A DNA stretch of 36,185 nt, taken from positions 1 to 36,185 of the forward strand of contig SKGQ01000140.1 of NCBI GenBank assembly GCA_007117515.1, in the 5' to 3' direction. The notes beneath the pieces are model-generated. The model saw nothing but the letters and a program-made list of their open reading frames with translations, had not been told where the DNA came from and did not search any database. Source of the DNA: Ectothiorhodospiraceae bacterium. Lineage in GTDB: Bacteria > Pseudomonadota > Gammaproteobacteria > Nitrococcales > Aquisalimonadaceae. The position numbers and the translations under genes were made by a program. This document shows, piece by piece, positions 11,854-13,881 of this stretch. Position 1 is the stretch's first letter; each line of letters opens with the position of its first letter.

Positions 11854-12717
11854 TTACACCATTGCTGCGCGCAGCTTTCCCATGGCGTTCTTTTCCAGCT
11901 GCCGGATCCGCTCGGCGGACACCTGGTACTGGTCGGCAAGCTCCTGCAGGGTCGTCTTGTCGTCCAGCAACCAACGGCGCTGCACGATGTCCCGGCTGCG
12001 CTCATCCAGACCGTCCAGCGCCTGGCGCAGGGAACTGGTCTGATGGGCGTTCCAGTCCGACTGCTCGGTGGCGGCGGCCGGATCCATTGAGCTGTCCTGC
12101 AGGAAAGCGGCCGGCGAGCGCACCACCGCGTCCTCGTCGTCGGACTCGGGTTGCGGGTCGAAAGCGATATCGTGACCGCTTAGCCGGGACTCCATCTCCA
12201 CAACGGTTTCCGGCTTGACGCCGAGATCTCCGGCAACGCGTTTGACTTCGTCCGCAGACAGCCAGCCGAGCCGCTTCTTGGAACTGCGCAGATTGAAGAA
12301 CAGTTTGCGCTGGGCCTTGGTCGTGGCGACCTTGACGATGCGCCAGTTACGCAGGATATATTCGTGGATCTCGGCACGGATCCAGTGCACGGCGAACGAA
12401 ACCAGGCGTACCTTGACCTCGGGATCAAAGCGCTTGACCGCCTTCATCAGACCGATATTGCCTTCCTGAATCAGGTCAGCCAAAGGCAAACCGTAGCCGT
12501 TGTAGCCACGCGCGATGTGCACCACGAAGCGCAAATGCGCCAGCACCAGCTGACGGGCGGCCTCCAGATCCTCGTTCTGCCGATAGGCGATGGCGAGCGA
12601 CTGTTCATCCTCGACGCTCAATACCGGAATCTGGTTGACGGCCTGGATATAGGCCTCTTCACTGCCCGATCGCAGGGGCAGCTGCTGATAATTGGTCGTT
12701 GCCACGGCAGTTGCCAT
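11854..12717 (-). CDS. rpoH: RNA polymerase heat-shock sigma factor (sigma-32)
   Basis: RpoH directs RNA polymerase to heat-shock promoters. The 287-residue product has region 2 ([26 protein letters not shown] split over 61-86, then KRFDP), the RpoH-specific box QRKLFFNLR at 136-144, which separates it from RpoD and RpoS, and a region 4 helix-turn-helix near 254-281. The length is close to the 284 residues of E. coli RpoH. GGGGG lies nine bases before the ATG. The upstream region holds a near-perfect CIRCE operator over a candidate promoter, implying HrcA control. It follows ftsX by about 175 bases, the conserved ftsY-ftsE-ftsX-rpoH order. Confidence 0.97.
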
Positions 12718-12753
12718 GTTGATATACCCCCGATTAGGAATTTGATGCTCTAA

Positions 12754-12783
12754 ATTTTAGCAGTCACTGGCTTAGAGTGCTAA
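12754..12783 (-). promoter_or_regulatory. CIRCE (HrcA) operator overlapping the candidate rpoH promoter
   Basis: TTAGCAGTC at 12757-12765 and GAGTGCTAA at 12775-12783 are separated by exactly nine bases. The CIRCE consensus is TTAGCACTC-N9-GAGTGCTAA, so 17 of 18 defined bases match. On the minus strand a -35-like TTAGCA (12783-12778) and a -10-like TAAAAT (12759-12754) have an 18-base spacer, and the inverted repeat covers both. A repressor bound here would block polymerase. The predicted transcript would have a leader of only about 30 bases before the rpoH ATG. HrcA is the known CIRCE-binding repressor; no hrcA gene is in this window. Confidence 0.82.
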
Positions 12784-12821
12784 GAGGGCAAAAGGGTTCC
12801 TAACAAAAAGGGCAGGGCGCG

Positions 12822-12865
12822 GTTTTACGTGTAACGTTTTACGCCAACCACCTAAAACGTAAAAC
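12822..12865. promoter_or_regulatory. Three GTTTTACG repeats upstream of the rpoH promoter
   Basis: GTTTTACG occurs at 12822-12829 and 12836-12843 as direct repeats 14 bases apart and in inverted form (CGTAAAAC) at 12858-12865. The first and third copies can also form a 9-bp stem. They lie in an AT-rich patch between ftsX and the CIRCE element, so they may be activator sites for rpoH. No known regulator was matched. Confidence 0.35.
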
Positions 12866-12891
12866 TCTTACCCCTAAAACTTTTCGTTAAT

Positions 12892-13881
12892 CTACTTCGG
12901 CTCAATCGCTGCCAGATGACGACCGACAGCGAGCCAGGAACCGGTCAATCCAAGACCGATGCCGACCAGACAGAGCAGGCCAAAGCCGCCGAGGCCGGGG
13001 CCGACCAGGATGGGACCTGTCTGGTAGAGCCGGGCCAGTTCAGACGCCGGCCCGTCCAGGGCAAGTCGCACACCGCCAACCAGAACCGCCGACGTCAGAC
13101 CGCCCAGAGCCCCGTACCAGAGACCCTCGTAGAGAAACGGACGGCGGATGAAACCATCGGTCGCGCCAATGAGCTTGGCAATGACGATCTCCTCACGTCG
13201 GTTCTGGATCGCCAGCCGAATCGTGTTGCCGACCACCAGTACCACGGTCAGACCGAGCAGCGCGGCAATGAGCCAGACCGCGCGACGCAACAGATCGGAA
13301 ATACTCTGCAGTCGCTCCACCCAGGCCAGATCCAGACGCACGCTATCGACGCCGTCTGCGGCCTGCACTTCGGCACCGAGGGCCTGCAGGCCTTCTGCAC
13401 CCAGGCCGGGATCCGGAATCAGCACGATAACCGCCGGCAGCGGATTGTCATCCAGCAGGTCCAGCGCCTCGTCCATGCCCGCCATGCGCCGGAAATCAGC
13501 CAGCGCCTGATCGGGCGAAATAATGGTCGCTGCCTGCACCGGGGGACTCTGAGCGAGTTCGTCAGCCAGACTCTGGACGCGGGATTCCTCTACCGACAGA
13601 TCCAGAAACACGGATAGCGAGGCACCGCGGTCCCAGTCGGCGCTAAGACGCTCGACGTTCTGCAGCAGCAACAGGAACAGCGCTGGCAGGGCCAGGGAAA
13701 TGGCGAGCACGCCGACGGTCATCAGCGCCGACAACGGCATACTGACCAACCGACCCAGAGAACTCACCAGGGCGCGGCCATGGGCGATGGCCCATGCCGA
13801 CAGCCCAGCGCGCAGGCGAGCCAGTCCGCCGTGCCCACGGCGGGCCGCACCGCGCGAAGGCCTGGCTGTCGGCCGCTTCAT
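12892..13881 (-). CDS. ftsX: Cell division protein FtsX
   Basis: FtsX is the membrane partner of the ATPase FtsE; together they activate periplasmic murein hydrolase regulators at the septum. The 329-residue protein has an Arg-rich cytoplasmic N-terminus, a first membrane helix near 48-75, a periplasmic domain of about 140 residues, and three further helices (near 220-242, 265-290 and 298-320), the usual four-helix FtsX plan. The cytoplasmic loop RREEIVIAKLIGATDGFIRRPFLYEG is the conserved FtsE coupling region. Its ATG overlaps the ftsE stop by four bases. Confidence 0.95.
   Translation of the reverse strand: MKRPTARPSRGAARRGHGGLARLRAGLSAWAIAHGRALVSSLGRLVSMPLSALMTVGVLAISLALPALFLLLLQNVERLSADWDRGASLSVFLDLSVEESRVQSLADELAQSPPVQAATIISPDQALADFRRMAGMDEALDLLDDNPLPAVIVLIPDPGLGAEGLQALGAEVQAADGVDSVRLDLAWVERLQSISDLLRRAVWLIAALLGLTVVLVVGNTIRLAIQNRREEIVIAKLIGATDGFIRRPFLYEGLWYGALGGLTSAVLVGGVRLALDGPASELARLYQTGPILVGPGLGGFGLLCLVGIGLGLTGSWLAVGRHLAAIEPK

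Follow-up and report, generated by a model that had tools for sequence, protein, structure and literature searches.

Textbook accounts of sigma-32 control derive from Escherichia coli, in which promoter P3 of rpoH is a sigma-E promoter; the form of such sigma-E (RpoE) promoters is GGAACTT-N16-TCNAA. The operator CIRCE and its repressor HrcA are found at groESL and hrcA-grpE-dnaK, and the site before rpoH described here has the same operator, the same repressor and the same presumed feedback through GroEL. A 2003 paper by Permina and Gelfand reportedly treats the sigma-32 and HrcA regulons of beta-, gamma- and epsilonproteobacteria, and rpoH may be among the genes it lists. For Geobacter sulfurreducens, a CIRCE before rpoH was predicted by Rodionov et al. 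in 2004 (PMC545781, Table 8). The RpoE-like factor SigE of Bordetella bronchiseptica drives in vitro transcription from the rpoH (fam) promoter, in a study that also used an rpoHP3 reporter (PMC3490749). A CIRCE before rpoH is not new, but its nesting with sigma-E- and sigma-70-type promoters, and the breadth of that layout, appear undescribed in the open literature; our search there (most subscription papers fell outside it) found no description of HrcA at rpoH combined with sigma-E.

A CIRCE operator before rpoH

In the window (the whole stretch of DNA analysed, 36,185 nt), rpoH occupies 11854–12717 on the minus strand and encodes a sigma-32 of 287 aa, identified above cut-off by TIGR02392 (410 bits, cut-off 323) and NF005143 (429 bits). 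A GGGGG at 12727–12731 (minus strand) is its likely Shine-Dalgarno sequence. Upstream on the same strand lie ftsX (12892–13881) and ftsE, and no terminator-like site was found in 12650–12950. Between ftsX and the rpoH promoter, at 12822–12880, GTTTTACG/CGTAAAAC motifs recur; among them is an inverted pair, exact over 8 bases and separated by 14, and they are possibly a site for another regulator.

The initial annotation placed a near-perfect CIRCE over the rpoH promoter, and this is borne out. Compared with consensus arms TTAGCACTC-N9-GAGTGCTAA, the operator at 12757–12783 (no strand assigned; arms TTAGCAGTC-N9-GAGTGCTAA) reads TTAGCAGTC ACTGGCTTA GAGTGCTAA on the plus strand, with one mismatch among its 18 arm positions. 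The window contains no other CIRCE match at three or fewer mismatches, and 100 shuffles of the sequence yielded none. The interval originally quoted, 12754–12783, corresponds exactly to the minus-strand -35/-10 pair discussed below, the CIRCE itself being three bases shorter; that pair is indeed present, but the gap between its -10 and the rpoH ATG (12717) counts as 36 bases rather than 37, and the gap from CIRCE to the ATG is 39.

The source draft genome (2.4 Mb, 97% complete) contains one hrcA (E = 2e-65) preceded by a perfect CIRCE, as well as rpoE (320.6 bits against a cut-off of 236.15). The initial annotation had made its reading depend on an hrcA in the same genome, which is thus present, and had suggested a scan for further CIRCE sites; when three mismatches are allowed the draft has two, the one before rpoH and the perfect one before hrcA. 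A search of the same 97% complete draft for groEL gave no match, probably owing to an assembly gap or missing contig, because most same-family relatives have groESL with a CIRCE.

Conservation and distribution

We searched the RpoH protein against 40 genomes to collect rpoH loci. CIRCE is present at rpoH, with 17–18 of 18 arm positions matching, in all 13 loci of the same family (Aquisalimonadaceae) with readable upstream sequence, a count that includes the source genome's own locus, and hrcA was found in 14/14 same-family genomes. Conservation in close relatives, the absence of which the initial annotation would have counted against itself, is therefore complete in this sample. The arms vary in a single respect, a repeated GAGTGC-to-GACTGC substitution confined to the arm nearer rpoH, and the spacer and flanks drift. 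At rpoH in three Lysobacterales loci (L034, L103 and L105) the canonical CIRCE gives way to a symmetric variant, TTAGCAGTC-N9-GACTGCTAA; the same G/C swap at arm position 7 is seen again, on one arm, in lineages unrelated to these and in the window. A genome available as a single contig (G004) has two CIRCE sites at no more than one mismatch, at rpoH and at groESL.

Outside the family the picture within the order is different: none of 17 loci from its other families has a CIRCE at rpoH, the best score of 10–12 being background, and we count it against our main reading that these families manage rpoH without the operator. One such locus (L018) has TGAACTC-N16-TCTAA and, at the place of the left arm, TTAACACTC without a right arm, which looks like a decayed CIRCE left arm beside a retained promoter; another locus of the order without CIRCE at rpoH (L020) has a sigma-E-like pair, GGAACTT-N17-TCCAA. 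These few loci suggest that the operator was lost and the promoter kept in sister families.

To place the arrangement more widely, 84,980 species genomes were scanned with a pattern that joins CIRCE to a start codon and to rpoH codons for DLIQEG. It occurs in at least 119 stretches; among the matches listed, most are from beta- and gammaproteobacteria, and they include Dyella and other Lysobacterales, Woeseiaceae, Halieaceae, Pseudoalteromonas, Rheinheimera, Rhodocyclaceae, Burkholderiaceae, Nitrosomonas, Methylocaldum, Thioalkalivibrio and a Geobacteraceae bin. Many cultured species carry the rpoH site, for example in Dyella, Thioalkalivibrio and Rheinheimera. In an even sample of 143 genomes from the class, the arrangement was found in 31, a lower bound given that the pattern restricts leader length and codons, and a reversed control pattern was found in none. 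An hrcA is present in 29 of these 31 genomes versus 72 of the 112 without the arrangement (Fisher p = 0.0014, relatedness uncorrected); the two genomes with the arrangement but no hrcA match are drafts, 85% and 97% complete. The placement of CIRCE at rpoH, presented in the initial annotation as unusual, is thus widespread in beta- and gammaproteobacteria, and had been predicted for G. sulfurreducens in 2004.

A chance match was rejected on the strength of the empty shuffles and the conservation in 13/13 same-family loci. That the site is a chance or relict CIRCE without function is very improbable: one arm does carry a mismatch, and the decayed-looking left arm TTAACACTC in L018 indicates that the site can be lost, but a score of 17–18/18 persists at every same-family locus where spacers and flanks have diverged, and the arrangement recurs in many families. 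We regard the operator at rpoH as real, conserved and probably functional.

Predicted promoter elements overlapping the operator

For comparison of the surrounding sequence, 93 rpoH loci (13 same-family and 80 named) were aligned on CIRCE. The operator's own arms supply a sigma-70-type promoter: on the minus strand the left arm forms a -35, TTAGCA (12778–12783), and the end of the right arm plus three bases forms a -10, TAAAAT (12754–12759), so that TTAGCA-N18-TAAAAT matches at 9 of 12 positions and has a TG before the -10. Across the alignment CIRCE is most often followed by (A/T)(A/C)T, the T being present in 90/93 loci; joined to the TAA that closes the right arm, this triplet completes TAAAAT or TAATAT, for which the left-arm TTAGCA stands as -35 at a distance of 18 bases.

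A second, sigma-E-type promoter also overlaps the operator. Its -35, GGAACCC (12794–12800, minus strand; 5/7 to GGAACTT), has a conserved position in the family and among the 93 loci, and 17 bp on lies its -10, TCTAA (12772–12776, minus strand), which, read on the rpoH strand, runs from the left arm of CIRCE into the spacer as far as its third base. The sequence has the elements of a sigma-E (RpoE/ECF02) promoter, a GGAACTT-like -35, a 15–17 bp spacing and TCNAA, although with its 5/7 -35 and full -10 the GGAACCC-N17-TCTAA of the source species is a weaker sigma-E match than that of many relatives. In 55/93 loci the 24 bases before CIRCE contain GGAACTT at 6/7 or better, against a mean of 1.4 and a maximum of 7 loci in 1000 trials with shuffled upstream sequence, and neighbouring windows give 0–3 matches per 80 loci. 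At 5/7 or better it occurs in 71/93 loci, 70 of which have 15–17 bases between it and the final TC of the left arm; after this TC, NAA is favoured (A at spacer position 2 in 54/93 and at position 3 in 72/93). The other 22 loci, Pseudoalteromonas and a Geobacteraceae bin among them, have no 5/7 GGAACTT at that place. In Advenella kashmirensis (L068) GGAACTT lies about 30 bases before CIRCE and is followed 16 bases on by TCTAT, a sigma-E-like promoter shifted upstream, such that CIRCE would sit near the predicted start site. Within the family, GGAAC or GAAC is kept at a near-fixed distance while the other flanks drift. The initial annotation had missed this overlapping promoter.

These observations bear on whether HrcA and CIRCE act on the sigma-70 promoter only, with the GGAAC motif inherited or unused here. 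The 9/12 pair with its TG, the retention of the T of the -10 in 90 of 93 loci and a -35 that in this species matches the sigma-E consensus at just 5/7 would all fit such a reading. We nevertheless consider it unlikely, given the near-fixed distance of GGAAC/GAAC in the family, the strong enrichment of GGAACTT over the 93 loci, the presence of rpoE, and the in vitro transcription of fam by Bordetella SigE (PMC3490749).

RNA structure in the rpoH leader

In E. coli most of the rpoH thermometer falls within the coding region, and for this reason the initial annotation's argument that a short leader speaks against an RNA thermometer is weak. Folding speaks neither for nor against one: the leader and early coding region fold with a z-score of -0.47, no covariation indicative of a conserved leader structure was detected among 13 relatives, pairing of the start codon varies from 0.26 to 0.98, and Rfam has no match in the window. 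CIRCE lies within the transcribed leader in some genes, and in the source species the start codon folds into a small hairpin, both of which would suit a palindrome acting as an RNA hairpin (for stability or as a thermometer) and not as a DNA operator. We rejected this candidate on position, as the left arm would lie outside the transcript from either predicted start and the hairpin could not form; with the z-score, the lack of covariation and of an Rfam match, and the association with hrcA, it is very improbable.

Proposed regulation of rpoH

What the genomes contain is an operator, its conservation, hrcA and rpoE, and promoter motifs with near-fixed spacing. From these we infer HrcA binding, promoter use, start sites and GroEL titration, and we put at roughly three in four the probability that an HrcA operator controls rpoH transcription from within a composite sigma-E/sigma-70 promoter. 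HrcA, kept active by GroEL, would sit on CIRCE and exclude polymerase from both promoters, for which start sites are predicted near 12766 (sigma-E-type) and near 12747 (sigma-70-type); because both promoters overlap the operator, bound HrcA should exclude either polymerase. Under cytoplasmic protein stress, unfolded protein would occupy GroEL, HrcA would weaken and rpoH would be transcribed, which makes the cascade from GroEL titration to RpoH put forward in the initial annotation plausible. Under envelope stress, sigma-E would add to rpoH transcription, possibly limited by HrcA. On this arrangement of motifs rpoH probably combines two protein-damage signals.

Comparison with known systems

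In most same-family relatives groESL is preceded by a perfect CIRCE, 55–59 bases before groES, and there the arrangement is clearly different from that at rpoH. Of 17 groESL CIRCEs from this family and neighbouring ones, none has a GGAACTT match reaching 6/7; TTGAC and TATCAT or TATTAT stand before the operator, and in no case is a T found three bases beyond it. The groESL operator thus follows its TTGAC/TATCAT promoter, whereas at rpoH the sigma-70-type promoter is built from the operator's arms, and the operator is also overlapped by a sigma-E-type motif. Near hrcA, six of 14 same-family genomes have a CIRCE with perfect or near-perfect arms and a spacer of 8 bases, not 9 (L208:939, L209:2522, L210:2670, L211:929, L212:929 and L214:1126), and in two genomes (G001 and G008) the CIRCE near hrcA scores 16/18; the exact 8-base-spacer form was found in 0/143 genomes across the class, and hrcA may be autoregulated differently in the family.

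The predicted G. sulfurreducens site, at -51 relative to the rpoH start, is a perfect CIRCE accompanied by CIRCEs at groESL and hrcA-grpE-dnaKJ (PMC545781). It is a prediction only, in a deltaproteobacterium, and the Geobacteraceae match in our scan (L047) has no GGAACTT-like motif before its CIRCE. Use of the fam promoter by SigE in B. bronchiseptica resembles our proposal and, by analogy, supports sigma-E use in a betaproteobacterium; HrcA is unmentioned in that work (PMC3490749).

More broadly, and with somewhat less confidence than for the locus itself, we think it likely that a composite rpoH promoter is common to many beta- and gammaproteobacteria, and that its operator doubles as the sigma-70 -35/-10 and covers the sigma-E promoter, so that HrcA/GroEL, reporting on the cytoplasm, and sigma-E, reporting on the envelope, would meet there in setting sigma-32 synthesis. 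The repressor and sigma-factor systems would then be stacked rather than parallel, with HrcA controlling sigma-32 synthesis besides its direct targets groESL and hrcA, and through a conserved sigma-E overlap a single operator would bring together cytoplasmic and envelope stress. At E. coli P3, sigma-E likewise transcribes rpoH but control by an HrcA operator is absent, since a control search of E. coli gave no hrcA match; the composite promoter, if true, would be an alternative to this E. coli wiring that lacks HrcA.
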